Positions 11,983 through 46,056 of a DNA stretch of 64,000 bases are shown here, piece after piece. Position numbers and translations under genes: made by a program. This stretch comes from Herbidospora sakaeratensis (GTDB taxonomy: Bacteria; Actinomycetota; Actinomycetes; Streptosporangiales; Streptosporangiaceae). Where the stretch lies: positions 269,458-333,457 of the forward strand of contig NZ_BBXC01000014.1 of assembly GCF_001570525.1 (NCBI RefSeq). The letters are read 5' to 3'. The notes beneath the pieces are model-generated. The model had not been told where the DNA came from, searched no databases, and was given only the letters and a program-made list of their open reading frames with translations. Position 1 is the stretch's first letter. Each line of letters starts with the position of its first letter.

Positions 11983-12019
11983 GCGAGCCACGGCCGGCCT
12001 GCGGCCGTCCGCGTCTCGC
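11983..12019 (-). repeat. Intergenic hairpin repeat, copy E
   Basis: Read on the minus strand, the arms are GCGAGACGCGGACGGCC and GGCCGGCCGTGGCTCGC around a GCA triloop, followed by a tail containing GAATCTGCC. It starts one base after the TAA stop of the GHL10 gene. It belongs to the same family as the copies at 15951, 29773, 29833 and 46020. Confidence 0.8.
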
Positions 12020-12020
12020 T

Positions 12021-13523
12021 TTATCCCACGCGTGCGGAGGCGGGTGTGCTCTCGTTGTAGAGGCGGTCGAGCGAGGTCACCTGGTAGGCGCCGTTGGCGC
12101 GGGTCTGGAACGACGAGCGCGTCGTCACCGCGACCAGCTCGCACGAGTTGCCCGAGCCCCGGTAGACCGCGTAGGCGCGGGCCCCCGGCACGCCCGTCCA
12201 GGTCAGCGTGCCGCCCGCGGCGCGCAGGTTCTTCACCGGGCCGAGCGGCCTGGTGGGCAGCCCCTTGATCAGCGGCAGCAGCGCCGGGCGCTGGTAGTAC
12301 TGCTCCTGGATCCGGGTCATCACCTTCAGCGGGTTCTGCACGACCTGCTTGGCGCTGAAGTAGACGTCGCCCTCGATCTCGGGGTAGCGCTTGTTGACCG
12401 CCAGGTGCGACGGGATCTCGTTGGGCCGGTTCCAGGCCCCGCCGGTGCCGATCTGGTAGAGCCCCTGGCCGATGTAGAGGTCGACGCCGCTGCCCTTGAC
12501 CGCGTTGGCCCACCAGGGCGCCAGCACGTCGTAGTCGGCCGCGGCGAAGCCCCGGTTCCAGTAGAGCTGCGGGGTCAGGTAGTCGACCGTGCCCGCCTTG
12601 ATCCACGCCTTCGGGTCGGCGTAGATCGCGTCGTAGGCCGACATGCCGGTGGTCTTGGAGCCGGTCGGGTCGTTGCTCTTGTTGCGCCAGATCCCGAACG
12701 GGCTGATGCCGAACTTCAGGTAGGGCTTGGCCCGGTGGACGGCCTTGTCGACCTGCGCCACCAGCTGGTTGACGTTGGCGCGCCGCCAGTTGGCCAGCGA
12801 CTTGCCCTCGCCGAACTTGTTGTAGGCGGCGGTGTCGTTGAACTTCGTGCCCTGGCCCGGATAGGGGTAGAAGTAGTCGTCGAAGTGCACGCCGTCGATG
12901 TCGTAGCGGTTGACCACGTCCATGATCACCTTGGTGACGTGGTCGCGGACCGACGGAAGCCCGGGGTTGTAGTAGAGCCGCCCCTCGTGCTTGACCACCC
13001 AGCCCGGGTGCTGCCGGGCCGGATGGTTGGCCGGCAGGGCGGCGATGTTGTCGCTGTAGGCGGCCCGGTAGGGGTTGAACCAGGCGTGGAACTCCATGCC
13101 CCGCTTGTGGGCCTCGCTGATCAGGAACGGCAGCGGGTCCCAGCCCGGGTTCTTGCCCGCCTTGCCGGTCAGGTACTGCGACCAGGGCTCGAGCGACGAC
13201 TTGTAGATGGCGTCGGAAGCCGGCCTGACCTGCACGAACACCGCGTTGATGCCGCGCGCGGCGGCGGTGTCGAGCATCTTGGCGTATTCGGCGCGCTGCG
13301 TGGCGGGCGACAGGCCCGCCTTCGACGGCCAGTCGATGTTCTGCGTCGTCGCGATCCACATGCCGCGCATCTGGCGTTTGGCCGCCGGGCAAACGTCCTT
13401 CTTGGCCGCGGTCACGTAGCTGGCACGCTCCAATTCCGGCTGGGACGCCTCCGGGACGAGCAGGTAGGCCCCCGCGGAAGCGGTCGCGGCCACGGCGACG
13501 CCGGCGATCAACTGTCGTTTCAC
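12021..13523 (-). CDS. GHL10-type glycoside hydrolase (family 10-like, YngK-like), secreted
   Basis: 500 aa from a GTG start preceded by GGGAGGGCAA, which is much better than the upstream in-frame ATG. The N-terminus is a signal peptide or anchor (KRQLIAGVAVAATASAGAYLL). The catalytic domain begins at QMRGMWIATTQNIDWPS and has INAVFVQVRPASDAIY, GMEFHAWFNPYR, YDIDGVHFDDYFYPYPG and a late FGISPFGIWRN. This is the GHL10 (formerly DUF187) layout. A C-terminal FN3-like segment is likely (about 415-500). Family members act on extracellular or cell-wall glycans. No operon partner; it shares strand with the neighbouring glycosidase. Confidence 0.85.
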   Translation of the reverse strand: MKRQLIAGVAVAATASAGAYLLVPEASQPELERASYVTAAKKDVCPAAKRQMRGMWIATTQNIDWPSKAGLSPATQRAEYAKMLDTAAARGINAVFVQVRPASDAIYKSSLEPWSQYLTGKAGKNPGWDPLPFLISEAHKRGMEFHAWFNPYRAAYSDNIAALPANHPARQHPGWVVKHEGRLYYNPGLPSVRDHVTKVIMDVVNRYDIDGVHFDDYFYPYPGQGTKFNDTAAYNKFGEGKSLANWRRANVNQLVAQVDKAVHRAKPYLKFGISPFGIWRNKSNDPTGSKTTGMSAYDAIYADPKAWIKAGTVDYLTPQLYWNRGFAAADYDVLAPWWANAVKGSGVDLYIGQGLYQIGTGGAWNRPNEIPSHLAVNKRYPEIEGDVYFSAKQVVQNPLKVMTRIQEQYYQRPALLPLIKGLPTRPLGPVKNLRAAGGTLTWTGVPGARAYAVYRGSGNSCELVAVTTRSSFQTRANGAYQVTSLDRLYNESTPASARVG

Positions 13524-13642
13524 TTGCCCTCCCCGAACGCGATGGCTGTCACAGTCTGGCATCGCATTGGCAATGCTTCGCCCGTATAGCGAAATTCGTC
13601 ATACGAGGCGGATGTGACTCCACACAACGCGCGGGGAAATGC

Positions 13643-13677
13643 CCCGGCGCCGTTCAGATGAAACGAACGGCGCCGGG
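13643..13677 (-). terminator. Hairpin terminator downstream of the EF-G2 gene
   Basis: Perfect 13-bp stem CCCGGCGCCGTTC / GAACGGCGCCGGG with a 9-nt loop, starting 7 bp after the stop of the minus-strand EF-G2 gene. The T-tract is weak. Confidence 0.6.
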
Positions 13678-13683
13678 AACCCG

Positions 13684-15801
13684 CTAATCAGCGGGGGTGG
13701 CGACCTTTCCGGCGAGGTGGGACGGCAATGGTTCATAACGCAGGAAAGCGCGGGTGAACGTGCCGGTTCCGTGTGACATCGACCGTAGATCTATTGCGTA
13801 TCGGGTGATTTCCAGTTCCGGCACCTCGGCCCGGACCAGCGTCCGGCCGACCCCCACGGGCTCGGTGCCCAGCACCCGTCCGCGCCGCGACGACAGGTCG
13901 CTCATGACGTTGCCGACGTAGTCGTCGTCGACCAGGACCGACACCTCGTCGACCGGTTCGAGCAGCAGCGCCGGCACCTTCGCGGCGGCCTCGCGCAGGG
14001 CCAGCCCGCCCGCGATCTGGAACGCCATGTCGCTGGAGTCGACCGAGTGGGCCTTGCCGTCGTACAGGGTGACCCTGATGTCGACCATCGGGTAGCCGGC
14101 CACCACGCCGCGCTCCATCTGGCTGCGCACGCCCTTCTCGACCGACGGGATGAACTGGCGCGGCACCACACCGCCGACGATCTTGTCGACGAACTCGAAC
14201 CCCGAGCCCGAGGGCAGCGGCTCGATCTCCAGGTGGCAGATGGCGTACTGGCCGTGGCCGCCGGTCTGCTTGACGTTGCGGCCCATGCCCTGGGCCCTGC
14301 CGCCGAAGGTCTCGCGCAGCGGCACCCGCAGGTCGATCTTCTCCACCTCGACTCCGTGACGCCGCGAGAGCCGGTCGAGCAGCACGTCGGCGTGGGCCTC
14401 GCCCATGCACCAGAGCACCAGCTGCCGGGTCTCGGCGTTGTTCTCCAGGCGCAGCGTCGGATCTTCGGCCACCAGGCGGTTCAGCGCCTGGGAGAGCTTG
14501 TCCTCGTCGGCCTTCGACCTGGCCCTGATGGCGATCGGGAGCAGCGGCTCGGGCATCTGCCAGGGCTCCATGAGCAGCGGGTTGTCCTTCTCGGACAGGG
14601 TGTCGCCGGTCTCGGCGTGGCCGAGCTTGGCCACCGCGACCACGTCGCCGGCCACGCACTTGCCCACCGGCCGCTGGGTCTTGCCCAGGGGCGAGGACAA
14701 CGCGCCGACGCGCTCGTCGATGTCGTGCTCGTGCTGCGGCACGTGCCCCGAGACGTGCACGGTCATGTCGGGCCGCAGGGTGCCCGAGAAGACGCGCACC
14801 AGGCTGATGCGACCCACGTAGGGGTCGCTGGTCGTCTTGACCACCTCGGCCACCAGCGGCCCGTCGGGGTCGCAGCGGCACACCTTGACGCTCGTGCCGT
14901 CTATGGTCGTGACCTCCGGCAGCCGGTGCTCGGGCGGGCACGGGAACCCCTGGGTGATCACTTCGAGCAGTTCGGGCATGCCCACGCCCGGCGCGGTCAC
15001 CAGCACCGGGTGGAAACTGGCCCGCGCGACCGCCTTCTCCAGGTCGTCGATGAGGACCTTGGTGTCGATCTCCTCGCCTTCGAGGTAGCGGTCCATGAGC
15101 GATTCGTCCTCGCTCTCCTGGATGATCCCCTCGATGAGCGACCCCCGGTACATCTCGATCAGCTCGACCTGGTCGGGATCGGGTTCCCTCTCGGTACGGG
15201 CGCCGCCCGCGTAGTCGAACACGCGCTGCGACAGCAGGCCCACGAGCGCGTCGCCGCCCACCGGCAGGTAGAGCGGCGCGACCCCCTCGCCGAAGGCGTC
15301 CTGGCAGGCGGTGAGGACCGCGTCGAAGTCGGCCCGCTGATGGTCGATCTTGGTGATGACGACCGCGCGCGGCATGCCCACGCTCGCGCACTCGTCCCAG
15401 AGCTGCCGGGTCAGCCCGTCGACCCCGTCGGTGGCGGCGACGACGAACAGCGCCGCGTCGGCGGCCCGCAGGCCGGCCCGCAGGTCCCCGACGAAGTCGG
15501 CGTACCCGGGCGTGTCGAGCAGGTTGATCTTTATCCCGTTGTGGGTCAGCGGCGCGAGGGCCAGGTTCACCGACCGCTGCTGGCGGACCTCGACCTCGTC
15601 GAAGTCGCTGATGGTGGTGCCGTCTTCGACCCTGCCCGTGCGCGGGATGGTGCCGGTCGCCGCGAGCAGCGCCTCCACCAGGGTCGTCTTCCCCGATCCG
15701 GAGTGGCCGACGAGCACGACGTTGCGCACCATGTCCGGCTGGTCGGCCGATGGTGCCCTGCCCGCGGCTCCCGATGTCCCTCCGTTTGCCTTCTCCGCCA
15801 C
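13684..15801 (-). CDS. EF-G-like translational GTPase, EF-G2 type
   Basis: 705 aa from a GTG start with AGGAGGCGAAA upstream. The G-domain has G1 GHSGSGKTTL, G3 DTPGYADF and a variant G4 TKID in place of the usual NKxD. The switch I region lacks the RGITI element and reads QRSVNLALAPL. Domains II-V follow, including GMGRNVKQTGGHGQYA, an EF-G domain IV feature. This matches actinobacterial EF-G2 (FusA2), not the essential FusA. From memory, mycobacterial EF-G2 binds GTP but lacks ribosome-dependent GTPase activity, so its role is unsettled. It is divergent from pgsA across a 229-bp gap holding a hairpin repeat. Confidence 0.88.
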   Translation of the reverse strand: MAEKANGGTSGAAGRAPSADQPDMVRNVVLVGHSGSGKTTLVEALLAATGTIPRTGRVEDGTTISDFDEVEVRQQRSVNLALAPLTHNGIKINLLDTPGYADFVGDLRAGLRAADAALFVVAATDGVDGLTRQLWDECASVGMPRAVVITKIDHQRADFDAVLTACQDAFGEGVAPLYLPVGGDALVGLLSQRVFDYAGGARTEREPDPDQVELIEMYRGSLIEGIIQESEDESLMDRYLEGEEIDTKVLIDDLEKAVARASFHPVLVTAPGVGMPELLEVITQGFPCPPEHRLPEVTTIDGTSVKVCRCDPDGPLVAEVVKTTSDPYVGRISLVRVFSGTLRPDMTVHVSGHVPQHEHDIDERVGALSSPLGKTQRPVGKCVAGDVVAVAKLGHAETGDTLSEKDNPLLMEPWQMPEPLLPIAIRARSKADEDKLSQALNRLVAEDPTLRLENNAETRQLVLWCMGEAHADVLLDRLSRRHGVEVEKIDLRVPLRETFGGRAQGMGRNVKQTGGHGQYAICHLEIEPLPSGSGFEFVDKIVGGVVPRQFIPSVEKGVRSQMERGVVAGYPMVDIRVTLYDGKAHSVDSSDMAFQIAGGLALREAAAKVPALLLEPVDEVSVLVDDDYVGNVMSDLSSRRGRVLGTEPVGVGRTLVRAEVPELEITRYAIDLRSMSHGTGTFTRAFLRYEPLPSHLAGKVATPAD

Positions 15802-15950
15802 TTTCGCCTCCTGGATTGGAGGGGAGGCCGCAGGCCGCGTGAGCGACCGGCGGCCGCCCGGCCGCCTGCTGTGACGCGCCCCCGCACCCCGATCGGAAAG
15901 GCGCGTGTAACCCACCCTTAACCGATGTGGCCCAGATCACAAGGGCTCAA

Positions 15951-15987
15951 GCGAGATATGGGCGGCCGAAGGCCGTCCGTATCTCGC
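15951..15987 (+). repeat. Intergenic hairpin repeat, copy D
   Basis: Arms GCGAGATATGGGCGGCC and GGCCGTCCGTATCTCGC around a GAA triloop, then a tail TTATGAACCTGA. This copy has the best-paired stem of the family: ATA/TAT replaces ACG/GTG seen elsewhere, so two base pairs are compensatory or better paired. It lies upstream of pgsA in the divergent gap after the EF-G2 gene start. Confidence 0.8.
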
Positions 15988-16030
15988 GTTATGAACCTGA
16001 CGGGGGCGATGCCCTACGATCAGGACCGCC

Positions 16031-16636
16031 ATGCTGAACGTTCTGCGTCCCGCCATGACCAGGCTGATGAGCCCGCTGGGCCGGTTCCTCGCGCGCCATG
16101 GCGTCACTCCCAACATGATCACCGCCGCCGGCACGCTCGGCACGGTGGCCTCGTCCCTGTGGTTCTACCCACGGGGAGAACTCATCCTGGGCAGCTGGGT
16201 GATCACCTTCTTCGTGCTGGCCGACCTGCTCGACGGCATCCTGGCCCGGATGACCAAGGGCTCGACCTGGGGCGCCTTCCTCGACTCGACCCTCGACCGG
16301 GTCGCCGACGCGGGCGTCTTCTCCGGCCTGATCATCTATCTGGTCCTCGACGGCCAGCGGGTGCTGGCCCTGGGCGGCCTGCTCTGCCTGGTCGGCGGCG
16401 CGGTCGTCTCCTACGCCAAGGCGCGGGCCGAGGGGCTCGGCATGACCGCCAACGTCGGCATCGCCGAGCGCGGAGAGCGATTGCTCGTCGTGCTCGTGGT
16501 GGCCTTCCTCGACGGATTGGGCGTGCCGTACGTTCTGGCTGTGGGTCTTTGGGGGCTGGCCGTCGCCAGCGTGATCACTGTGGGGCAGCGCATGCACGTC
16601 GTCTACCGGCAGGCGGTGGAGCATGACGCTCACTGA
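16031..16636 (+). CDS. pgsA: Phosphatidylinositol phosphate synthase (CDP-alcohol phosphotransferase)
   Basis: 201 aa with about five or six membrane segments. The CDP-alcohol phosphotransferase motif is complete: DLLDGILAR followed by GAFLDSTLD, giving the DxxDGxxAR-G-xxxDxxxD pattern in the second membrane segment. Together with the downstream patA and pimA genes, it is the actinobacterial enzyme that joins CDP-diacylglycerol and inositol phosphate to give phosphatidylinositol phosphate. Start ATG; the 3' end overlaps patA by 14 nt. Confidence 0.92.
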   Translation: MLNVLRPAMTRLMSPLGRFLARHGVTPNMITAAGTLGTVASSLWFYPRGELILGSWVITFFVLADLLDGILARMTKGSTWGAFLDSTLDRVADAGVFSGLIIYLVLDGQRVLALGGLLCLVGGAVVSYAKARAEGLGMTANVGIAERGERLLVVLVVAFLDGLGVPYVLAVGLWGLAVASVITVGQRMHVVYRQAVEHDAH

Positions 16637-17537
16637 CCGGATCGTCGCGTCGGCCTACATGGTCGGCTGGGCCATCGTCCGCCACGTCCCGGAGAAGGCC
16701 GCCGCCGTGGTGTTCCGGGCGATCGCCGACGTCATGTGGCGGCGCCGGGGCAAGTCGGTCAGGCGGCTGGAGTCGAACCTGGCCCGGGTGACCGGCGGCG
16801 ACGAGGCCTCGCTCCGCGCGCTCTCGAAACAGGGCCTGCGGTCCTACATGCGTTACTGGATGGAGGTCTTCCGGCTGCCGAGCATGGATCCCCAGCAGAT
16901 CCACGCCCGCACCCACTCCCACGGCGAGAACCTCATCTTCGACACCGTCGCCTCCGGGCGCGGGGTCGTGATCGCGCTGCCCCACATGGGCAACTGGGAC
17001 GCCGCCGGGATCTGGCTCGTGCAGAGCGGCCACCCGTTCACGACCGTGATGGAGCGCCTCAAGCCCGAGATCCTCTTCGAGCGGTTCGTCGCCTTCCGGA
17101 CCGCCATCGGGATGGAGGTGCTGCCGCTGACCGCCAAGGGCGGCGGCACCGCCCACGCCTTCGGCACCCTGGCCCAGCGCACCCGCGCCGGTGGCGTGGT
17201 CTGCCTCCCGGCCGACCGCGACCTGACCGAGAGCGGGGTCGAGGTCGACTTCTTCGGCGCCCGCACCCGCATGGCCGCCGGGCCCGCCCTGCTGGCGCTC
17301 CAGACCGGGGCGGCGCTGCTGCCGGTGATCGTCTACTTCGACGGCGCCGACTGGGGTTTAGACGTTCATCCGGAAGTGCCCGTGCCGGACGAGGGGACCC
17401 GGCAGGAGAAGGCGGCCGCGCTCACGCAGGGCATGGCGGCGGCCTTCGAGAAGGGCATCGCGGAACACCCTGACGACTGGCACATGCTCCAGCGGCTCTG
17501 GCTCGACGACCTGGAACCGAGGGAGCCCCGCCCGTGA
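16623..17537 (+). CDS. patA: Phosphatidylinositol mannoside acyltransferase PatA
   Basis: 304 aa, ATG start inside the end of pgsA. It belongs to the LpxL/HtrB-like lipid acyltransferase family, with the catalytic HX4D motif as H-MGNW-D in ALPHMGNWDAAG (about residue 120). LPADRDLTESGVEVDFFG matches the second conserved block. In actinobacteria this enzyme acylates the mannose of PIM1 or PIM2 on the cytosolic face of the membrane. It overlaps pimA by 4 nt (GTGA), so the set is translationally coupled. Confidence 0.92.
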   Translation: MTLTDRIVASAYMVGWAIVRHVPEKAAAVVFRAIADVMWRRRGKSVRRLESNLARVTGGDEASLRALSKQGLRSYMRYWMEVFRLPSMDPQQIHARTHSHGENLIFDTVASGRGVVIALPHMGNWDAAGIWLVQSGHPFTTVMERLKPEILFERFVAFRTAIGMEVLPLTAKGGGTAHAFGTLAQRTRAGGVVCLPADRDLTESGVEVDFFGARTRMAAGPALLALQTGAALLPVIVYFDGADWGLDVHPEVPVPDEGTRQEKAAALTQGMAAAFEKGIAEHPDDWHMLQRLWLDDLEPREPRP

Positions 17538-18661
17538 GGATCGGGATCGTCTGCCCGTACATGTGGGACGTCCCGGGAGGCGTGCAGGCCCACGTGCGCG
17601 ATCTGGCCGAGGCGCTGATCGACGACGGGCACCGGGTCTCGGTCATGGCGCCGGCCGGTGACGACGCGCCGCTCCCGGCCTACGTGGTGTCGGCCGGGCG
17701 GGCCGTGCCGGTGCCCTACAACGGGTCGGTGGCCCGGCTCACCTTCGGGTTCCTGTCGGCCAACCGGGTCCGCAAGTGGATCCGCGAGGGCCGCTTCGAC
17801 GTGCTCCACGTCCACGAGCCGGCCGTGCCGTCGGTGGGTCTGCTGGCCTGCTGGGTCGCCCGGGGCCCGATCGTGGCGACCTTCCACGCCTCCTACGAAC
17901 GCTCGCGGGCCGTCTCGGTGACCGCGCCCGTGCTGCACACCGCCCTGGAGAAGATCACCGGCCGGATCGCCGTCTCCGACGCGGCCCGCAAGACCCTGGT
18001 CGAGCACATGGGCGGCGACGCCGTGCTGATCCCCAACGGGGTCACCGTCGACCGCTACGCCGAGGCCGAGCCCCTCCCGGGCTGGGGCCCCGACGGGACC
18101 GTCCTGGGCTTCCTGGGGCGCATGGACGAACCCCGCAAGGGCCTGGCCGTGCTGCTGGAGGCGTTCGCGAAGCTGGGGGAGGAGCGGCCCGGCGTGCGGC
18201 TGCTGGTCGCGGGCCCCGGCGACGCCGACGACGTCTACGCCAAGCTGCCCAAGAGCCTGCATGACCGCGTCGAGCTGCTCGGCATGGTCAGCGAGGCCGA
18301 CAAGATCCGCGCCCTCCACTCCGTCGACGTCTTCGTCGCCCCCAACCTGGGCGGCGAGAGCTTCGGCATCGTGCTGACCGAGGCCATGTCGGCCGGCGCG
18401 ACCATCCTGGCCAGCGACATCCCGGCCTTCCGCAGGGTGCTGGGCGACGGCCAGGCCGGGGCCCTGTTCGCCACCGGCGACGCCGCCGCGCTGGCCCGCG
18501 AGGCGGGGAAGCTGCTCGACGACCCGCAGCGCCGGGCCAAGTACTCCGACGAGGCCCGCCTCGCGGTCCGCAAATACGACTGGTCGACCGTCGCCCGCGA
18601 CGTCCTGCGGGTCTACGAGACCGTCACCGGCGCCCCGGTCGGCGTGGAGGACGAGGAGTGA
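17534..18661 (+). CDS. pimA: GDP-mannose:phosphatidyl-myo-inositol mannosyltransferase PimA
   Basis: 375 aa GT4-family glycosyltransferase with a GT-B fold. The N-terminus MRIGIVCPYMWDVPGGVQAHVRDLAEAL has the Gly-rich acceptor loop. VLHVHEPAVPS and AGPGDADDV follow, and the donor-binding EX7E motif is in GESFGIVLTEAMSAG. It transfers the first mannose to phosphatidylinositol. The neighbours pgsA and patA fix the assignment. GTG start overlapping patA by 4 nt. Confidence 0.93.
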   Translation: MRIGIVCPYMWDVPGGVQAHVRDLAEALIDDGHRVSVMAPAGDDAPLPAYVVSAGRAVPVPYNGSVARLTFGFLSANRVRKWIREGRFDVLHVHEPAVPSVGLLACWVARGPIVATFHASYERSRAVSVTAPVLHTALEKITGRIAVSDAARKTLVEHMGGDAVLIPNGVTVDRYAEAEPLPGWGPDGTVLGFLGRMDEPRKGLAVLLEAFAKLGEERPGVRLLVAGPGDADDVYAKLPKSLHDRVELLGMVSEADKIRALHSVDVFVAPNLGGESFGIVLTEAMSAGATILASDIPAFRRVLGDGQAGALFATGDAAALAREAGKLLDDPQRRAKYSDEARLAVRKYDWSTVARDVLRVYETVTGAPVGVEDEE

Positions 18662-19185
18662 ACACCACGGTCATCCTGGTCGTCGGCGTGGTGATCGTGC
18701 TGACGGCCGTCTACATCTCGTGGCGGGCCGGGCGGCTCGACCGGCTGCACATCCGCCTGGAGACCGCCCACGCCGCCCTCGACGCCGCCCTGCTGCGGCG
18801 GGCCGCGGTCAGCCTGGAGCTGGCCGGCTCGCGGCTGCTCGACCCGGCCACGTCGCTGGTGCTGGCGGCGGCGGCCCACGAGGCGCGTACGGCCGGCCCC
18901 GACGAGCGCGAGCACGCCGAGAGCGACCTGTCGCGCACCCTGCGGGCGGTGGTCGACCAGGAGACCTTCGCCGAGAGGGTGCGGGCCCCAGAGCTGCTGG
19001 CCGAGCTCGACGCCTCGGTGGCCAAGGTCGTCTACTCGCGGCGGTTCTACAACAACGCCGTCGACGTCACCCGGGTCGCCCAGCGCCGCTTCCTGGCCCG
19101 GGTGCTGCGGCTGGCCGGGCACACGCCCTACCCCGAGTTCTTCGACATCGACGACGATCCTCCGAAGGCCATGGCGGGCGCCTGA
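18658..19185 (+). CDS. LemA-like single-pass membrane protein
   Basis: 175 aa, GTG start overlapping the pimA stop by 4 nt. One N-terminal membrane helix (TTVILVVGVVIVLTAVYISW) is followed by a helical cytosolic or extracytoplasmic domain. The segment YSRRFYNNAVDVTRVAQRRF resembles the conserved Arg-x-Tyr-Asn region of LemA-family proteins. A conserved membrane protein sits at the end of the pgsA-patA-pimA cluster in many actinobacteria. The function is unknown; the coupling suggests a link to PIM lipid synthesis. Confidence 0.65.
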   Translation: MNTTVILVVGVVIVLTAVYISWRAGRLDRLHIRLETAHAALDAALLRRAAVSLELAGSRLLDPATSLVLAAAAHEARTAGPDEREHAESDLSRTLRAVVDQETFAERVRAPELLAELDASVAKVVYSRRFYNNAVDVTRVAQRRFLARVLRLAGHTPYPEFFDIDDDPPKAMAGA

Positions 19186-19214
19186 CCGACTTGACGGACT
19201 CTGACCGAATTACC

Positions 19215-19239
19215 AGCTAGCGCCGGTAAGCTAGCGCCG
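19215..19239. repeat. Short direct repeat in the DUF3048 promoter region
   Basis: AGCTAGCGCCG occurs twice (19215-19225 and 19229-19239) with a 14-bp period, just upstream of the GGGAGGA ribosome binding site of the DUF3048 lipoprotein gene. It may be a regulator site or part of the promoter. No known consensus was recognised. Confidence 0.4.
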
Positions 19240-19267
19240 ATTTTTCGGGACTCGGGAGGAGTTGTCC

Positions 19268-20278: not shown

Positions 20279-20280
20279 CC

Positions 20281-20389
20281 GGACTGTCCGGTTCCGCCAG
20301 TCTTTCGGTACGAAATGGACTGTCGTTTTGGTTCGCTCGGACGCCTAATATAGAACCAATTCACCAGTCCCCTCGAGTGAGGTAGCGCC
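20281..20389 (+). promoter_or_regulatory. pdxST promoter region with direct and inverted repeats
   Basis: A near-consensus -10 box TAATAT is at 20346-20351. A direct repeat GGACTGTC occurs at 20281-20288 and 20317-20324, each followed by a GGTTC-containing stretch. An inverted pair TTGGTTC (20328-20334) / GAACCAA (20353-20359) brackets the -10. The arrangement suggests a regulator site, perhaps a PdxR-like MocR protein, but no pdxR lies in the window. Confidence 0.5.
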
Positions 20390-21870: not shown

Positions 21871-21873
21871 CCG

Positions 21874-22653: not shown

Positions 22654-22702
22654 TTTCGACTGGATTGCGCGGTTCCACGGGGCCTGCGTAGGTTGTGGTT
22701 CC

Positions 22703-23851: not shown

Positions 23852-23861
23852 TGTAAGATCG

Positions 23862-23877
23862 CCGAACACATGTTCGG
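23862..23877. promoter_or_regulatory. LexA/SOS box of the ruvCAB operon
   Basis: CCGAACACATGTTCGG has perfect 6-bp arms (CCGAAC/GTTCGG) and the GAAC-N4-GTTC core of the Gram-positive/actinobacterial LexA box. It lies 18 bp before the ruvC start and just downstream of a -10-like TAAGAT (23854-23859), so LexA would sit over the start point of transcription. Confidence 0.85.
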
Positions 23878-23895
23878 AGCGGAAGGGGGCCGCCG

Positions 23896-29768: not shown

Positions 29769-29772
29769 CAGA

Positions 29773-29892
29773 GCGAGACGCGGCCGGCCGAAGGCCGGTC
29801 GTGGCTCGCGTTGGGAATCTGCCCAATAGACACGAGACGCGGCCGGCCGAAGGCCGGTCGTGGCTCGCGTGGGGAATCTGCCCAATAGACAC
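29773..29892 (+). repeat. 59-bp tandem repeat: hairpin repeat copies A and B
   Basis: Two copies with a 59-bp period that differ at one base (29812 T versus 29871 G). Each has a hairpin (29773-29809 and about 29833-29867) with arms GCGAGACGCGGCCGGCC and GGCCGGTCGTGGCTCGC around GAA, then a tail GGGAATCTGCCCAATAGACAC. Copy A starts 4 bp after the secF stop. Same family as 11983, 15951 and 46020. Confidence 0.9.
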
Positions 29893-29895
29893 GCG

Positions 29896-29949
29896 AACGC
29901 CCTGCGGGATCCGGGGAAGATCCGGAGCCCGCGGGGCGTTTCGCTTTTT
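29896..29949 (+). terminator. Rho-independent terminator after secF and the repeats
   Basis: Stem AACGCCCTGCGGG / CCCGCGGGGCGTT (13 bp, one G-U) with a 19-nt loop, then TTTCGCTTTTT. Ends the yajC-secDF transcript before apt. Confidence 0.8.
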
Positions 29950-32921: not shown

Positions 32922-32935
32922 GCGGGCACGACCTG

Positions 32936-34159: not shown

Positions 34160-34216
34160 CGTGTCCTCCCGCACTCGAATCAGCCTCCAGGGCGTTTAGC
34201 CCTTGGTTGTATTACG

Positions 34217-35059: not shown

Positions 35060-35205
35060 TTCGTCCTCCCGACTGTCCAAGAATGACTATTGAGGTGGGC
35101 GAATCGTATCGGCACACGGGTATTGGTTCGCAGCCCGCCGACCCGCACCGGTACCCTTCGGTTACATTCGCTCGCTCAATCCTTTGAGACATCGAGGCCG
35201 CTCCG

Positions 35206-38857: not shown

Positions 38858-38865
38858 CAACGAAG

Positions 38866-38896
38866 AAGGCCGGTCCGAATAGGGCCGGCCTTTTTT
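38866..38896 (+). terminator. Rho-independent terminator of hisS-aspS
   Basis: Stem AAGGCCGGTCC / GGGCCGGCCTT (11 bp, one G-U) with a GAATA loop, followed by a T6 run. Confidence 0.88.
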
Positions 38897-38899
38897 GTT

Positions 38900-39715
38900 T
38901 TACCTGACCCGTCCGACGGCCCCGAAGAAGCCGGCCTTGCGGGGGTCGGCGTCGGCCAGCCCCGTGATCTCCGGCCGCCAGACCCCCACTTGGACGATCC
39001 CCGGCTCCAGCAGCTCCATGCCCTCGAAGTAGGCCGCGACCTGCGCCGAGTTGCGGGCCGTGATGTTCCCGCTGGTGGTCTGCCGGTACGTCTGGTACAC
39101 GACCTGCTGGAGATCGGGGTCGACCTCGCCCATGTGGCCGTGGGACATGACCAGGTAGCTGCCCGGCACCATCGGCACCCGCAGCTCCCGCACGATCCGG
39201 GACGCCTCGTCGTCGTCGGGCACGAAGTGCACTATGGCCAGCAGCATGATCGCCACCGGCTGGGAGAAGTCGATGAGGGCCCGCACCTCGGGGTGGTCGA
39301 GGATGCCCTTGGGGTCGTGCAGGTCGGCCCGGACGACGGCGGTGTTGCGGTTCTTGGCCAGCAGGGCCCGCCCGTGGGCCAGCACGATGGGGTCGTTGTC
39401 GACGTAGACGACGCGGGCGTCGGGGGCGACCGCCTGGGCGACCTGGTGGGTGTTCTCCCGGGTCGGCAGGCCCGAGCCGATGTCGAGGAACTGCCGGATG
39501 CCCTGCGCGGCCAGCAGGCGCACGACGCGGGATAAGAACGCGCGGTTCTCCCGGGTGAAGTCCCGGACGTAGGGCATGCGGGCCAGGATCTCGTCGGCGG
39601 CTTCCCGGTCGGCGGCGAAGTTGTCCTTGCCGCCCAGGTAGTAGTCGTACATCCGGGCGACGCTGGGCTTGTGCGGGTCGATGACCCACGACGGTGCCGG
39701 CTCGTGCTCGGACAA
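38900..39715 (-). CDS. DUF574-family SAM-dependent methyltransferase
   Basis: 271 aa from a TTG 7 bp after GGAGG; this start gives the familiar opening APSWVIDPHKPSVARMYDYYLGGKDNFAADR. The SAM-binding region is IRQFLDIGSGLPTRENTHQVAQ, then ARVVYVDNDPIVLAHGRALL. This family (Methyltransf_19) is expanded in Streptomyces and Streptosporangiales; substrates are unknown. Its 3' end nearly touches the aspS terminator. Confidence 0.9.
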   Translation of the reverse strand: MSEHEPAPSWVIDPHKPSVARMYDYYLGGKDNFAADREAADEILARMPYVRDFTRENRAFLSRVVRLLAAQGIRQFLDIGSGLPTRENTHQVAQAVAPDARVVYVDNDPIVLAHGRALLAKNRNTAVVRADLHDPKGILDHPEVRALIDFSQPVAIMLLAIVHFVPDDDEASRIVRELRVPMVPGSYLVMSHGHMGEVDPDLQQVVYQTYRQTTSGNITARNSAQVAAYFEGMELLEPGIVQVGVWRPEITGLADADPRKAGFFGAVGRVR

Positions 39716-39819
39716 CGTGTCGCCTCCGGTCAGGGGAATGGCAATCGCATGCGGAATTTGCCTGAGGAATCGCCTTTCGCGAGATTCTAGGGGTTCTGTT
39801 GGGATTCGTGTCGCCCGAA

Positions 39820-39859
39820 ACACCGAAGGGCGGGTCCGGATGGACCCGCCCTTCGGTGT
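39820..39859 (-). terminator. Long perfect hairpin terminator of the cyclophilin lipoprotein gene
   Basis: 18-bp perfect stem (ACACCGAAGGGCGGGTCC with its complement) and a GGAT loop, starting 8 bp beyond the stop of the gene at 39867-40730. A short T-tract (TTTCGGG) follows on the minus strand. Confidence 0.8.
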
Positions 39860-39866
39860 GAAACGC

Positions 39867-40730
39867 CTACTTGACGATGACGTCCTTGATCTCCACGCGC
39901 ATCTTCGGCGCGTTGGAGCCGCCGTCCTCCGACAGGATGTCGTCCTCGTTCTTGATGACGCCGCCCGCGGCGATCTTGTCGACGATCTCGATGCCCTTGG
40001 TCACCACACCGAACGGCGTGTACGCCGCCGGGAGCTGGGCCGCCTCGTCGCTGTAGGAGATGGCGAACTGGCTGCCGTTGGAGTTGGCCGCGTCGCCGCC
40101 CTGGGCCATGAAGACCACGCCGCGCGTGTACTGCGGGCCGAGGTTCTCGTCGGGGAACAGGTAGCCGGGGCCGCCGGTGCCGTCGGTCTTGTTCTTGCCG
40201 TCGCCCTTGGCCTGCGGGTCACCGCACTGCAGCAGGTCGAGGCCGTTGCTATCGGCCGTGGTGAGCCGGTGGCACAGGGTGTTGTCGAAGTAGTTCTTCT
40301 TCGCCAGGAAGTAGAACGAGTTGACCGTGCACGGCGTCGACTCGGGCACCAGCTCGATGACGATGTCGCCCTGGTTGGTCTTGAGCGTCATGTTCTTGGC
40401 GGCCAGCGCGGCCTTCATCGGCTTGGCCGGCGGCATGCCCACGAACTTGCTCGGGACGCCGGTGTCGTCCTTGCGGTACTCGCACTTCACGTTCTTGGGG
40501 TCGACCGGCGTCGGGGGAGCGGTCGGCGCGTCGGGCAGCTTGGAGGGGATCGAGGTGATCGACGGGGCGGCCGACGCCGGCGGGGGCTCCTCGCCGGGGG
40601 CCGCCGTGTTGCCATCTGCGCTGTTGCAGCCCGTCACCGCGAAGAGCGAGAGGATCACTGCACCGACCCCCAACCGGACGCGACGGGCCTGGCCCAGGGC
40701 CAGGGGTTTCTGCCGATTCGTGTGGGTCAC
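39867..40730 (-). CDS. Lipoprotein cyclophilin-type peptidyl-prolyl isomerase
   Basis: 287 aa, GTG start with AGGGAAGG upstream. Lipoprotein signal with the lipobox VTGC. A Pro/Ala/Ser linker leads to a cyclophilin domain with PCTVNSFYFLAKKNYFDNTLCHRLTT, GGPGYLFPDEN, GSQFAISYSD and FGVVTKGIEIVDKI. The catalytic Arg of the FHR motif is replaced in part by CHRL, which is common in this actinobacterial subgroup. Paralogue of the gene at 34217-35059. Confidence 0.9.
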   Translation of the reverse strand: MTHTNRQKPLALGQARRVRLGVGAVILSLFAVTGCNSADGNTAAPGEEPPPASAAPSITSIPSKLPDAPTAPPTPVDPKNVKCEYRKDDTGVPSKFVGMPPAKPMKAALAAKNMTLKTNQGDIVIELVPESTPCTVNSFYFLAKKNYFDNTLCHRLTTADSNGLDLLQCGDPQAKGDGKNKTDGTGGPGYLFPDENLGPQYTRGVVFMAQGGDAANSNGSQFAISYSDEAAQLPAAYTPFGVVTKGIEIVDKIAAGGVIKNEDDILSEDGGSNAPKMRVEIKDVIVK

Positions 40731-40838
40731 TGCGTTGCCTTCCCTTTATTCGTCCATTGCTGAAGTTTCGCGTCACTCTATCCGTGATCGTGTTCGCTTC
40801 GTGTAAGACCAGTCCCAGGCGCCCCATGCGTAACGATC

Positions 40839-40866
40839 TTGCCTTCGGCAGGGCTGGGATTAGCAT
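40839..40866 (+). promoter_or_regulatory. Candidate promoter giving a leaderless tricorn mRNA
   Basis: TTGCCT (40839-40844), 16-bp spacer, TAGCAT (40861-40866). The expected start point about 7 bp further on coincides with the GTG start at 40874. Confidence 0.5.
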
Positions 40867-40873
40867 TGTGGGG

Positions 40874-43800
40874 GTGCCTAGCAGGTCATACCTCCGGTTT
40901 CCGCACATCCGTCGCGATCTCCTGACGTTCGTCGCGGAGGACGACGTGTGGATCGCTCCGCTCGACGGCGGGCGGGCCTGGCGCCTCACGGTCGAGCAGG
41001 TGGGCGCCGCCCACCCGCGCCTGTCGCCCGACGGCGCCATGGTGGCCTGGCAGGGCGGGCGCATCCCCGCCGAGGTGCACGTCGCGCCGGTCGACGGCGG
41101 CGGCATCGAGCAGCTCACCCACTGGGGCGGCAACGGCGCGCGGGTGCACGGCTGGCTCGACGACCAGACGGTGATCGCCGGCAGCTCCCACGACCAGCCC
41201 TTCGCCCACTGGACGTGGGCGCGCACGGTGCCGCTCGACGGCGGCCCGGGGGAGCGGCTGCCCTACGGCCCGGTCAGCGACCTCGACCTGCGCGAGGGCC
41301 GCACCCTGCTGCTGACCGCCTCGGCCGGTCACGACCCCGCCCACTGGAAGCGCTACCGGGGCGGCGGCATGGGTCGCCTGTGGCTCGACGGGAACCGCCT
41401 GCTGGCCGGCCACGAGGGCCAGCTCGCCGCGCCGATGCTCGTCGGCGGCCGGATCGTGTTCCTCTCCGACCACGAGGGGACCGGAAACCTCTATTCGGTC
41501 CGGTACGACGGAGGCGACCTCAGGAAGCACACGAGCCACGAGGACTTCTACGCCCGCCAGGCGGCCACCGACGGAACCCGGATCGTCTACGCGCGGGCCG
41601 GCAGCCTGTGGTTGCTGCCCGGCCTCGACGCCGAGCCCGAACCGCTGGAGGTGCGCCTCGGCGGCGCCGGCCGGGGACGCCAGCCCTTCTGGGCCAGCCC
41701 ACAGCCCGAGGACGTCGCCTGCGACACCACCGGCCGGGCCAGCGCCGTCGAGGTGGGCGGCGCCGTCCACTGGGTGACCCACGAGGACGGCCCGGTCCGG
41801 CTCCTGTCCGGGCGCGGCCGGGCCCGGTTGCCCATCGTGCTCGGCCGGTTCGACCGCGCCGACGACGCCGAGCCCGACGACCTGGGCAAACGGGTGAACG
41901 GCCCGGCCGCCTGGGTGACCGACGCGGGCGGAGAGGACGCCATCGAGCTGGGCACGCCCGGCCGCCCCACCCGGACGGTCGCCGCCGGGGAGCTCGGCCA
42001 GGTCGAGGAGATGGAGGCCGCCCCCGACGGCTCGGTGATCGCGGTCGCCTCCCACGACGGCCGCCTGCTCCTGGTCGACCCGGAGACCGGCACGGTCACC
42101 GAGCTCACCCGCACCGACCACGGGGTGATCAGCGACCTCGGGTTCGACCCGCGCTCCCAGTGGCTGGTGTGGTGCCACCCGGTCTCCCGGGGCTACGCCA
42201 TCCGGATGGCCCGCCTCCAGCGCCCCGGAGCGCCGGAGGACGACGACCCCGACTCGGGCGCCGAGGTGACCGAGACCCCCGCCCCGGAGACCCCGGCGAG
42301 TGAGATCGTGCACGTCACCGACGGCCGGTTCACCGACATGTCGCCCGCCTTCACCGGCGACGGCCGCAACCTGGTCTTCCTGTCGCTGCGCGGCTTCGAG
42401 ATGATCCGCGACTCCCACAGCTTCGACCTGGTGATCACCCACGGCACCCGCCCCTACCTGGTGCCGCTCGCGGCCGGCGCGCCCTCGCCGTTCGCCCCCT
42501 CGGTCGAGGGCAAGTCGGCCGACGGCGGCGACTCCGGCGACGGGCCCGTCACCGTCGACCTGGCCGGGCTCGACGGGCGGATCGTGCCGCTGCCGGTGCC
42601 CGAGGCCCACTACTGGTCGTTGCGGCCGGTCAAGGGCGGGCTGGTCTGGTGCCGGGGCACGACCGGCGAGCCGACCGTGCTCGAACGTTTCGACCTCGAC
42701 AAGCGCAAGACCGAGGAGCTCGCCACCGACGTGCACTTCTTCTCCGTCAGCGGAGACGGCTCCCGGATCGTCGTGCGCGACGCCTCGGAGCTGCGGGTGA
42801 TCTCCGCGACGAGCAAGAACGGCGACGGCGTGAGCGTCGACCTCGAACGCGTCCGGGTGCGCATCGACCCGGGCCGGCGCTGGCGGCAGGCGTACGCCGA
42901 GGCCGGGCGCATCATGCGCGACCACTTCTGGGTCGCCGACATGGCCGGGGTCGACTGGCCCGAGGTGCTGGAGACCTACCGGCCCTGGCTCGACCGGGTC
43001 GGCGGCCCGGAGGACTTCGCCGACCTCGTCGGCGAGGTCGTCGGCGAGCTCGGCGCCTCCCACGCCTACGTCTACGCCGCCCGCCACCACTGGCGCAGCC
43101 CCACCGGCCGACTGGGCGCCGACATCGGGCCCGACACCGACGGCCTGTGGCGGGTCCGGCGCATCTTCCCCTCCGAGCTCTCCGACACCGCCGCCCGCTC
43201 GCCGCTCCAGGGGTCCGGCGTCCGGGCCGGCGACGCGATCCTGGCCGTCGACGGCGTGCCGGTCGACCCGGTGACCGGGCCCGCGCCGCTGCTCTGGGCC
43301 GCGTACGGGCACCCGGTCGAGCTGACCGTCGAGTCGGGCGCCCGCGTCTTCCGGGTGGCCGTGGTCCCGCTGGTCAACGACCGGCGGCTGCGCTACCACT
43401 CCTGGGTGGCCGACCGGCGGAGGCTGGTCCGCCACCGGTCCGGCGGGCGGATCGGCTACCTGCACGTGCCCGACATGGACCGGGCGGGCTGGGCGCAGCT
43501 GCACCGCGACCTGTCCCACGAGCTGGCCAAGGAGGCCGTGATCGTCGACGTGCGGGCCAACCAGGGCGGCAACACCTCCCAGCTGGTGGTGGAGAAGCTG
43601 TCCCGCCGCATCGTCGGCTGGAAGTTGTCGCGGCGGGAGGAGCCCAGGAGCTATCCCATGGACGCCCCGCGCGGCCCCGTCGTGGTGCTGTGCGACGAGG
43701 AGACCTCCTCCGACGGCGACATCATCACCGCCGCCGTCCAGGCCCTCGGCCTCGGCCCGGTCATCGGGACCCGCACCTGGGGCGGGGTCATCGGCATCCG

Positions 43801-44074
43801 GGGCGTCTACCGGCTGGCCGACGGCACCCGGATGCGGGTGCCCGGCTTCGCCCACTGGAGCGAGAACTACGGCTGGGAACTGGAGAACCGGGGCGCGACC
43901 CCCGACGAGGAGGTGCTGATCACCCCCGCCGACTGGGCCCGGGGGGCCGACCCCCAGCTCGACGCGGCGGTGCGGCACGCCCTGAGGGCGATGGAGGGCC
44001 GCCCGGTCAGCGTGCCGCCCGACCCGGCCACCCGCCCCTTCCGCGGCCGGGTCAGAGCCGACGGGCGCGGTTGA
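40874..44074 (+). CDS. Tricorn-type protease (S41 family)
   Basis: 1066 aa from the GTG at 40874 (a GTG at 40868 is an alternative). N-terminal six- and seven-bladed beta-propellers (PHIRRDLLTFVAEDDVWIAPLDGGRAWRLT and WD-like repeats to about 630). Then a C1 helical domain, a PDZ domain (SGVRAGDAILAVDGVPVDP) and a C2 catalytic domain. The catalytic set is visible: Ser729-His730 in LGASHAYVY, nucleophile Ser946-Asp947 in EETSSDGDI, and Glu near 1012 in TPDEEV. Degrades peptides released by the proteasome or other proteases. The family length of about 1070 aa matches. No clear operon partner. Confidence 0.93.
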   Translation: MPSRSYLRFPHIRRDLLTFVAEDDVWIAPLDGGRAWRLTVEQVGAAHPRLSPDGAMVAWQGGRIPAEVHVAPVDGGGIEQLTHWGGNGARVHGWLDDQTVIAGSSHDQPFAHWTWARTVPLDGGPGERLPYGPVSDLDLREGRTLLLTASAGHDPAHWKRYRGGGMGRLWLDGNRLLAGHEGQLAAPMLVGGRIVFLSDHEGTGNLYSVRYDGGDLRKHTSHEDFYARQAATDGTRIVYARAGSLWLLPGLDAEPEPLEVRLGGAGRGRQPFWASPQPEDVACDTTGRASAVEVGGAVHWVTHEDGPVRLLSGRGRARLPIVLGRFDRADDAEPDDLGKRVNGPAAWVTDAGGEDAIELGTPGRPTRTVAAGELGQVEEMEAAPDGSVIAVASHDGRLLLVDPETGTVTELTRTDHGVISDLGFDPRSQWLVWCHPVSRGYAIRMARLQRPGAPEDDDPDSGAEVTETPAPETPASEIVHVTDGRFTDMSPAFTGDGRNLVFLSLRGFEMIRDSHSFDLVITHGTRPYLVPLAAGAPSPFAPSVEGKSADGGDSGDGPVTVDLAGLDGRIVPLPVPEAHYWSLRPVKGGLVWCRGTTGEPTVLERFDLDKRKTEELATDVHFFSVSGDGSRIVVRDASELRVISATSKNGDGVSVDLERVRVRIDPGRRWRQAYAEAGRIMRDHFWVADMAGVDWPEVLETYRPWLDRVGGPEDFADLVGEVVGELGASHAYVYAARHHWRSPTGRLGADIGPDTDGLWRVRRIFPSELSDTAARSPLQGSGVRAGDAILAVDGVPVDPVTGPAPLLWAAYGHPVELTVESGARVFRVAVVPLVNDRRLRYHSWVADRRRLVRHRSGGRIGYLHVPDMDRAGWAQLHRDLSHELAKEAVIVDVRANQGGNTSQLVVEKLSRRIVGWKLSRREEPRSYPMDAPRGPVVVLCDEETSSDGDIITAAVQALGLGPVIGTRTWGGVIGIRGVYRLADGTRMRVPGFAHWSENYGWELENRGATPDEEVLITPADWARGADPQLDAAVRHALRAMEGRPVSVPPDPATRPFRGRVRADGRG

Positions 44075-44161
44075 GCGCTCTCATCCCGCTCTCAGATCCA
44101 TCTGGGAACCTGCGCGTTGTCGCTCCGGTATCAAGTGGATGACGAAGGAGATGTCCCCAGC

Positions 44162-44614
44162 ATGTTCGACTCCGTTTTCGGCCTTCCCCTGCATCCGCTG
44201 GTCGTGCACGCCGCGGTGGTCTTCACCCCGCTGCTGGCCGCCGTCGCCGTCGCCTACGCCGTGCTGCCCCGCTTCCGCGCCCGGCTCGACTGGGCCGTGG
44301 TGCTGCTGGCCGTCGCCGCGCCGATCAGCGTCTTCGCCGCCCGGATGAGCGGCGAGGCGCTCAAGGAGTCGCGGTACGGCGCCCAGGCGCCCGCGCCGGT
44401 CGCCGAGCACGAGTCGTTCGCCCTCCCGCTGCTGCTGACCTCGATCGCCCTCGCGGTGGTCGCGCTGGTGCTGGTCTGGGCGGTGAGCAAGGGCCGCAGC
44501 GGGGCCCTGACCACGGTCCTGTCGGTGCTGACCGTCGTGGGCGCGCTGGCCGTCACCTTCTACGTCGTCCGCGCCGGGCACACCGGGGCCACCGCCGTCT
44601 GGGGCCTAGGCTAG
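44162..44614 (+). CDS. DUF2231 small membrane protein
   Basis: 150 aa from the ATG; GAAGGAG lies 12 bp upstream. Four hydrophobic segments. The N-terminal motif FGLPLHPLVVHAAVVFTPLLA and the C-terminal VRAGHTGATAVWG (two conserved His) define DUF2231, a family with likely metal- or haem-binding histidines. Function unknown. rarA starts 6 bp downstream. Confidence 0.85.
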   Translation: MFDSVFGLPLHPLVVHAAVVFTPLLAAVAVAYAVLPRFRARLDWAVVLLAVAAPISVFAARMSGEALKESRYGAQAPAPVAEHESFALPLLLTSIALAVVALVLVWAVSKGRSGALTTVLSVLTVVGALAVTFYVVRAGHTGATAVWGLG

Positions 44615-44620
44615 GGGTTT

Positions 44621-45925
44621 GTGGAGAGCCTGTTCGATTCGGCCGCGCGCGACAACACGCCCGAGCCCCTCGCCGTGCGCATGCGCCCGCGCACCCTCGA
44701 CGAGGTCATCGGCCAGCGCCACCTGCTCGGCCCCGGCACCCCCCTGCGGCGGCTGGTGGAGAGCGAGGCCCCCATGTCGTTGTTCCTGTGGGGGCCGCCC
44801 GGCACCGGCAAGACCACGCTGGCCTACGTCGTGTCCAACGTCACCAAACGCCGGTTCGTCGAGGTCTCGGCCGTCTCGGCGGGGGTCAAGGACGTGCGTA
44901 CGGCCATCGAGAACGCGCGCCGGGAACTGGGCATGACCGGGCGGCAGACCGTCCTGTTCGTCGACGAGGTCCATCGCTTCAACAAGGCCCAGCAGGACGC
45001 GCTGCTCCCGGCGGTGGAGAACCGCTGGGTCACCTTCATCGGCGCCACCACCGAGAACCCGTTCTTCTCCGTCATCTCGCCGCTGCTGTCGCGCTCGCTG
45101 CTGCTGACCCTCGAGTCGCTCACCGACGACGACGTCGGGGCCGTCCTCGACCGCGCCGTGACCGACGAACGCGGCCTGAACGGCACGGTCACCCTCCGGC
45201 CCGAGGCCAGGGAGCAGCTGGTCCGGCTGGCCGGGGGAGACGCCCGGCGCTCCCTCACCTACCTGGAGGCCGCCGCCCTCCTGGCCGACGACGTCACCGT
45301 CGAGGTGGTCGAGAAGGCCGTCGACAAGGCCGCCGTCCGCTACGACCGCCAGGGCGACCAGCACTACGACGTCATCAGCGCCTTCATCAAGAGCATGCGC
45401 GGCTCCGACGCCGACGCCGCACTCCACTACCTGGCCCGCATGGTCGAGGCGGGGGAGGACCCCCGCTTCATCGCCCGCCGGATCGTCATCTTCGCCTCCG
45501 AGGACGTCGGCATGGCCGACCCGACCGCCCTCCAGGTGGCCGTGGCCGCCGCCCAGGCCGTCGAGTTCATCGGCCTGCCCGAGGGGCGCATCAACCTGGC
45601 CCAGGCGGTCATCCACTGCGCGCTGGCCCCCAAGTCGAACGCCGTCGTGAAGGCCATCGGCGCGGCCCAGGCCGACGTGCGGGCCGGGCTCATCGGGCAG
45701 GTCCCGGCCCACCTGCGCGACGCCCACTATCCGGGCGCGAAGAAGCTGGGGCACGGGGAGGCGTACCGCTACCCCCACGACTTCGACCACGGCGTGGTGC
45801 GCCAGGACTACGCGCCCGAGGAGGTGCGCGACCGGCGCTACTACGAGCCGACCACCCACGGCGCCGAGGCCCCGGTCGCCGAGCGGTGGGCGAAGCTGCG
45901 CGCCTTCCTGCGCGGCGAACGCTGA
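44621..45925 (+). CDS. rarA: Replication-associated recombination ATPase RarA/MgsA
   Basis: 434 aa, GTG start. AAA+ clamp-loader-like ATPase: opening [25 protein letters not shown], Walker [12 protein letters not shown], Walker [21 protein letters not shown], sensor 1 [13 protein letters not shown], arginine finger region [11 protein letters not shown], and a MgsA C-terminal domain with [20 protein letters not shown]. Acts at stalled replication forks. The gene is followed by hairpin repeat copy C. Confidence 0.95.
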
Positions 45926-46019
45926 CCCGAACACGCATGCCCGGCCATCGCCGTGGCAGAAGGCGGACCTGGAATACGCGATAGGGTTTCTGCCATTCAA
46001 CGCAGGGGCCCCGCCCGAA

Positions 46020-46056
46020 GCGAGACGCGGACTGCCGAAGGCAGGCTGTGGCTCGC
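46020..46056 (+). repeat. Intergenic hairpin repeat, copy C
   Basis: Arms GCGAGACGCGGACTGCC and GGCAGGCTGTGGCTCGC around a GAA triloop, tail GGTGAATGTGCC. It shows a compensatory T-A pair (CTGCC/GGCAG) where other copies have G-C (CGGCC/GGCCG). It lies in the 164-bp gap between rarA and the DUF948 gene, 18 bp before the GAAGGAG ribosome binding site. Confidence 0.8.

Follow-up and report, generated by a model that had tools for sequence, protein, structure and literature searches.

Hairpin units in the window

The window analysed here, a stretch of 64,000 nucleotides of contig NZ_BBXC01000014.1 from Herbidospora sakaeratensis (Streptosporangiaceae), carries at four loci five copies of a hairpin unit belonging to a dispersed, genus-restricted family of probably mobile, non-autonomous elements. 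The five copies listed in the initial annotation were all recovered, the fourth being best read as 29832-29868. Copy 1 is located on the minus strand with its hairpin (stem, GCA loop, stem) at 11983-12019 (80.3 bits), and sequence reading places the tail and the A-rich 3' end at 11961-11982, including the motif GAATCTGCC at 11969-11977. The other copies are on the plus strand. Copy 2 (hairpin at 15951-15987, 58.8 bits) has a fully paired stem and a degenerate tail, GAACCTGAC, at 15993-16001, and lies between two divergent genes, an EF-G-like gene on the minus and a CDP-alcohol phosphatidyltransferase gene on the plus strand. Copies 3 and 4 form a head-to-tail pair. The hairpin of the first unit (29773-29809) begins 4 nt past the secF stop codon, and its tail (29810-29831, GAATCTGCC at 29815-29823) reaches the junction with the second unit, which follows after 59 nt with its hairpin at 29832-29868 and its tail at 29869-29892 (GAATCTGCC at 29874-29882). 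Copy 5 (hairpin at 46020-46056, 72.4 bits) is characterized by a T-A pair at stem position 14 and by the tail sequence GAATGTGCC at 46063-46071 within 46057-46077.

The expected hairpin was formed by all five copies upon RNA folding and also by the four copies examined in DNA folding (1, 2, 3 and 5). The compensatory changes reported earlier are real, namely the T-A pairs at stem position 7 in the copy at 15951 and at position 14 in the copy at 46020. Of the 17-bp stem originally described, 15 standard pairs stand; positions 6 and 12 are usually A.G mismatches. Two neighbouring features may be recorded. A separate terminator-like inverted repeat at 29890-29945, 3' of the secF stop codon and of copies 3 and 4, is present in the five relatives read there. 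The segment 10613-11850 falls within a minus-strand gene encoding F5/8 type C and fibronectin III domains; among the matches listed, at least six of the seven genomes contain it a second time, at 85-88% identity.

Structure of the unit

A position-weight scan of the fetched loci yielded 124 distinct copies, 66 from the window's own genome (8.6 Mb in 35 contigs) and 58 from other genomes, window copy 2 being left out. They define a unit of ca. 60 nt built from (A)A, an imperfect stem of 17 positions closed mostly by a C-GNA-G loop, 5-6 nt, GAATCTGCC and an A-rich end; in consensus order it reads A/G-A, GCGAGACGCGGACGGCC, GAA, GGCCGGCCGTGGCTCGC, spacer, GAATCTGCC, a pyrimidine and, up to about +10, a stretch rich in A. 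The tail motif, allowing up to 2 mismatches, follows a spacer of 4-8 nt in 117 of the 124 copies; among these 117 (the seven copies without a recognisable tail are left out of the tail statistics) the spacer measures 5 nt in 100 and 6 nt in 14. The tail is not an artefact of the search, because 46 of the 49 own copies that were found by the stem alone carry it within 2 mismatches. A GNA loop is found in 118 of the 124 copies, most of which were fetched by patterns that themselves contain GNA, and in 13 of the 17 own copies outside the 49-match stem pattern. Loops of the C-GNA-G type are very stable in DNA.

The stems vary in a concerted manner. Among 75 distinct stems, 50 two-sided changes were counted compared to a mean of 14.9 and a maximum of 26 in 500 shuffles; without positions 6 and 12 the count was 31 (shuffle maximum 9), and for the own copies alone 26 (shuffle maximum 8), figures which are not to be read as probabilities since the shuffles ignore the relatedness of the copies. 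Pairing amounts to 88.5% for the true stem partners and drops to 29-38% when the partners are slid by 1-2 positions. At L143, L144, L147 and L148 the stems are widely altered with pairing and tail kept. The irregularities of the stem are themselves conserved, as A.G is the commonest state at position 6 (46/75 distinct stems) and position 12 (37/75) and G.T at position 8 (53/75). Both strands were compared for two copies, and in each the complement folded less stably than the modelled strand. A few copies (L008, L013, L131 at 4929, and L197) carry TTTCTYAGACACG or TTCTTAGAC in place of GAATCTGCC and possibly form a tail subfamily.

A known Rfam family was rejected: Rfam 15 gave no match at gathering score in the window, and only sub-threshold matches were obtained at L010 (1400-1700). 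An ordinary intrinsic terminator was rejected likewise, as no T-run follows the stem; its place is taken by the spacer and the GAATCTGCC tail.

Copy number and distribution

The stem pattern, allowing up to 3 mismatches, has 49 matches in the own genome and none when read backwards. A covariance model built from the alignment of these 49 matches recognised at least 68 sense-strand sites, including all five window copies. The 83 model matches comprise these 68 sites, 14 opposite-strand echoes and one separate weak site, and 68 is a lower bound because 150 of 21,145 candidates were scored. All seven Herbidospora genomes contain the family, with 38-85 model matches each (opposite-strand echoes included, and at most 83 candidates scored per genome at first look). 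The search of the genome and of relatives suggested in the initial annotation thus revealed an abundant family.

Outside Herbidospora, the model gave one marginal match in each of 6 of 53 genomes (E = 2e-4 to 8e-4) and none in the others. When named genome contigs were scanned with an exact pattern, 42 stretches were retrieved, all in Herbidospora records. A looser pattern, in which loop and tail were fixed and the lower stem left free, matched 220 times in the seven Herbidospora genomes (control 0) and once in each of 5 of the 193 other genomes of Streptosporangiaceae; its reversed control matched in 2 of 200 genomes. The 3' sides of the five matches outside the genus, where the 3' arms alone were compared, are unlike the 3' arm of the family. 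Within what was searched, the hairpin family is confined to the genus Herbidospora. An origin from phages or plasmids was rejected, given that viral contigs contained no exact stem-pattern match and plasmid and phage collections no blastn match for copies 3 and 4. The literature searches found no description of this hairpin family among the papers covered.

Filled, empty and scarred sites

The aligned orthologous sites show that units have been inserted, lost and changed in tandem number, and that the family has moved since these Herbidospora species parted. At the site of copy 5, the relatives G001, G002, G005 and G006 read GCC-AAGGAGG where the window has an insert of 61 nt; G004 is filled and G003 is not covered. 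Copy 1 is absent in G005, G001, G002 and G006, filled in G004, and represented in G003 by a tail scar from which the hairpin is deleted. The site of copy 2 is degenerate in G003 and has no hairpin in G004, G001, G005, G006 and G002.

For a broader view, 18 own loci with the unit excised were queried against G004, G003 and G005; they are the first in order of 26 fragments chosen for own copies scoring >45, outside arrays and without an orthologue in hand. The unit is missing in at least one of the three relatives at all 18 loci. At 15 of them the alignment length lies within 4 nt of that of the joined empty site, the deviations at L008, L012 and L024 being at least 6, 7 and 12 nt, respectively. 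Additional sequence of 48-69 nt was present in one or more relatives at 11 of the 18 loci; six such places were read, and the stem was recognised in five of them with no more than one mismatch. The sixth, L196 (G003:C66:24911-25190), is the locus L005 in G003, where ca. 69 extra bases show no stem match at up to 8 mismatches.

Among 34 sites read base by base, clean junctions occur at, e.g., L013, L020, L029 and L032, with nearly identical pre-insertion sequence in three relatives at L020 and L032. Diverged junctions are seen at L015, L017, L018 and L030, among others, and remains of the tail persist at L024. Clean junctions and tail remains together show that gains of the unit and deletions of the hairpin both occur.

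The flanks were compared for a target-site duplication such as accompanies a miniature inverted-repeat transposable element (MITE). In 98 single copies, words of 3-8 bases by the head recur on the right side with a weak excess (z 1.1-2.6), with scattered z values up to 2.7 elsewhere in the same test; no regular duplication was seen in these copies, and none is common to the empty sites read. Membership in a longer transposon was rejected, since no longer element is common to the flanks of different copies and the 48 local matches between flanks are explained by tandem units, short stretches or gene-level similarity (e.g. L031/L143).

Units also occur in direct arrays. Neighbours less than 300 nt apart among the 124 copies are in all 14 pairs on the same strand (head-to-tail) and in none inverted, and 10 of the 14 pairs are spaced at 58-60 nt. 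Their number differs between orthologous loci, being 1 vs 2 at L021, 1 vs 2 at L026 and 1 vs 4 at L037, and the locus of copies 3 and 4 holds two units in the window's genome and one in G004 and G006.

Placement relative to genes

On the basis of genes called by a codon-usage script rather than of a curated annotation, 60 of the 66 own copies are located outside called open reading frames (ORFs). Between co-directional genes 22 are sense and 16 antisense, 17 lie between divergent and 5 between convergent genes, and 6 are inside called ORFs. The 58 copies of other genomes are distributed similarly (12 sense, 17 antisense, 15 divergent, 7 convergent, 6 inside, 1 unresolved). The strand of the unit is unbiased relative to genes. 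A position 3' of genes in the same orientation, as noted for copies in the window, is therefore not general, and a 3'-UTR (untranslated region) element as a rule finds no support in these counts.

A preference exists for stop codons. The head lies -12 to +7 nt from the stop of the same-strand upstream gene in 28 of the 46 copies with such a neighbour and at 8-35 nt past the stop in none; within -9 to +5, 26 heads were observed vs about 13 expected for uniform placement, tandem units and some orthologues being taken separately in these counts. Gene starts showed no excess (3/65 and 2/66 vs expected 3.2 and 4.1), nor did the tail side at convergent stops (13/45 vs expected 12.4). At L031 and at copy 1, a TAG stop stands at the insertion point in the empty relatives. 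The genes at L031 and L143 are paralogues (about 70% identity across 425 bases), and both are followed by a copy 0-2 nt past the stop; the two copies carry different stems, and three relatives have an empty site at L031.

At three loci (L044/L126, L032 and L082) the unit is inserted in frame inside an ORF. L044 (own C9:52427-52497) is a stop-to-stop ORF of 586 residues (PF04464) with an insert of 20 residues, which is shared by the orthologue L126 (likely H. galbida) and missing in the 566-residue orthologue L108 (likely H. mongoliensis). At L032 (own C21:55997-56068) an ORF of DUF6875 is extended in frame by 60 nt, the other strand of the unit being read, and three relatives are without the unit. 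L082 (likely H. solisilvae) is an ORF of 693 residues that reads the unit in the frame used at L044. The remaining copies called inside ORFs appear by eye to be C-terminal extensions or doubtful calls.

Candidate mobilising enzymes

Known enzyme families were searched in the seven Herbidospora genomes. Y1 transposase (PF01797) is present in one of them: the sole match, L089 (G002:C8:352081-352434), adjoins a TnpB-like gene, named by eye, and belongs to an IS605-type element. The REP-associated tyrosine transposase (RAYT) proposed for look-up in the initial annotation (REP, repetitive extragenic palindrome) was over the cut-off of model NF047646 in none of the seven genomes, the one weak sub-threshold match being the Y1 gene of G002; in a control search the same model matched in 6 of 14 known genomes and exceeded the cut-off in one. 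Reverse transcriptase (PF00078, RVT_1) occurs in two genomes, including the window's own (L201, own C17:175834-176370), with no match in the other five, and IS110 (PF01548) in three. Of these four families the window's genome has reverse transcriptase only. With 1, 0 over cut-off, 2 and 3 of seven genomes, respectively, Y1, RAYT, reverse transcriptase and IS110 were rejected as genus-wide movers.

Discussion

The copy number, the compensatory changes and the units missing at 18 of 18 loci argue for a mobile non-autonomous hairpin and not for an ordinary terminator. We therefore interpret the family, with a probability of roughly 0.7, as non-autonomous mobile hairpin elements that are REP-like but of their own kind, the single hairpin-plus-tail of ca. 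60 nt being the moving unit. The initial annotation had left the choice between selection on folding and mobility of a hairpin unit; both gain support, the former from compensatory changes beyond those in shuffles and the latter from the empty sites. As a mechanistic scenario, one strand of the unit would fold when single-stranded, most likely as DNA in view of the strand-specific G.T pairs and the GNA loop; we infer such a folded single-strand intermediate because the fold is strand-specific, and from the loop and tail. Recognition by a protein would depend on the imperfect stem with its fixed A.G mismatches and on the GAATCTGCC tail, and this protein would join the unit to new sites behind short A-rich words, in many cases stop codons, producing no regular target duplication. 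Head-to-tail arrays might arise by repeated insertion or by slippage, and the surviving copies would be chiefly those outside genes, along with those within genes that add 20 in-frame codons.

Several points weigh against this scenario. No mobilising enzyme was found among Y1, RAYT, reverse transcriptase and IS110 in the seven genomes. Several of the junctions read by base are too diverged to be read, and some absences are deletions, as tail scars were left in G003 (copy 1), in G002 and G001 (copies 3 and 4) and at L179. The weak word excess by the head may reflect a short or eroded target duplication, and the folded form may be either DNA or RNA. Moreover, the replication-strand signal expected for insertion of single-stranded DNA on the lagging strand is lacking, with 18 switches in 45 neighbour pairs (p 0.116) and 9/19 in G004; a replication-strand bias was rejected because strand segregation along contigs is not significant.

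In a bolder and distinctly tentative version, the units would move independently of known transposase families, the folded strand of ca. 60 nt being inserted at stop-codon-like sites by the replication machinery itself or by a host or domesticated enzyme so far unrecognised, with the unit readable as 20 codons. If true, this would constitute a new way of spread for palindromic repeat families, and a new enzyme might provide a compact tool for inserting single-stranded DNA.

The alternatives differ from the mobile hairpin in what moves or maintains the copies. Orphan REPs or scars derived from IS200/IS605, whose Y1 transposase would since have disappeared from most species, would account for a mismatched hairpin as described for E. 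coli REPs in passages of PMC8266576, for stop-codon abutment as in the GTAG REPs of PMC3733652 (likewise from passages), and for the absence of terminal inverted repeats besides the hairpin. We consider this unlikely, since PF01797 is confined to one genome with a TnpB gene beside it, NF047646 gives no more than the sub-threshold match in that Y1 gene, and the tags are virtually missing: 2 of the 124 copies have GTAG in the 6 nt before the stem (one copy) or its complement in the 6 nt after it (one copy), and CGTC lies within 6 nt of the stem in none.

Still less probable is a regulatory RNA element that is maintained because selection acts on transcripts, be it a terminator, a processing site or a stabiliser in the 3' UTR. 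Compensatory changes with G.U pairs, the clustering of heads at same-strand stops (28/46) and the copies at the ends of secF and of the paralogous genes at L031/L143 agree with such a role; the missing strand bias among the 66 own copies, the tail without a T-run, orthologous loci that manage without the unit and the separate terminator-like stem downstream of copies 3 and 4 speak against it. Retroposition of a small structured RNA by a reverse transcriptase would fit a strand-specific folded unit with a conserved 3' tail and no regular target duplication, as well as the one RVT_1 gene in the window's genome; it appears very improbable with RVT_1 in two of seven genomes, none in G003 with its 85 model matches, and no Rfam match at gathering score in the window. 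Least probable of all is a DNA site bound by a nucleoid, gyrase-like or repair protein and propagated through selection on the site itself. Such a site would explain a dispersed palindrome that is strand-neutral to genes, but a protein binding double-stranded DNA symmetrically would not be expected to fix A.G and G.T on one strand or a one-sided tail, and clean insertions of ca. 60 nt require a mobile step anyway.

Comparison with known systems

The mobile hairpin unit of Herbidospora shares its general design with GTAG REPs, REPINs and bacterial interspersed mosaic elements (BIMEs) that are associated with RAYTs, i.e. a short imperfect palindrome with conserved stem mismatches and many intergenic copies, and abuts stop codons and sometimes lies inside ORFs as GTAG REPs do (passages of PMC3733652, PMC8266576 and PMC3116915). 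In the same passages the conserved mismatches of E. coli REPs are required by their transposase (PMC8266576), GTAG REPs reportedly provide stop codons (PMC3733652), and REPINs are inverted pairs (PMC3116915). By size the family agrees with REPs (palindromes of ~20-50 nt in many intergenic copies), having a 37-nt hairpin at no fewer than 68 sites. Unlike GTAG REPs, however, the Herbidospora unit is a single hairpin plus tail with neither a GTAG tag nor a RAYT over cut-off, and unlike in REPINs and BIMEs its pairs are direct. The BIME type proposed in the initial annotation is not supported, given 14/14 head-to-tail pairs and no RAYT over cut-off in seven genomes; of the REP-like assignment, the mobile, mismatched and dispersed hairpin holds and the GTAG tag, RAYT and inverted pairs do not.

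The mycobacterial interspersed repetitive units (MIRU) are an actinobacterial example of tandem direct units at gene ends, which are strand-biased to transcription; no such bias exists in the Herbidospora family. Elements of the IS200/IS605 type are not known to generate a target-site duplication. At their ends a folded subterminal hairpin with irregularities is read by the transposase (described in part of PMC8266576), and they and the miniature elements derived from them resemble the present family in this irregular folded hairpin; in contrast, no longer element surrounds the Herbidospora copies, and a Y1 gene is found in one of seven genomes. The CGTC-tagged repeats, including the Rickettsia palindromic elements (RPE), are reported in the relevant passages of PMC3733652 to occur without a dedicated transposase, and RPE units to encode amino acids inside ORFs. 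The in-frame units at three loci are comparable and give an example, from an actinobacterial genus, of palindromes that have become part of proteins; the Herbidospora family differs from RPE by the missing CGTC tag, the host phylum and the conserved tail.

Most of its habits are thus known singly from REPs and RPEs. New is the joint occurrence of a single-hairpin unit, a long conserved tail and direct arrays in a family for which no known enzyme was found. The usual explanation of REP-like repeats invokes RAYTs, with inverted pairs as the moving unit; the Herbidospora family has moved with neither, and its sites, which occur in filled, empty, tandem and scarred states, make the spread of untagged palindromic repeats directly testable.

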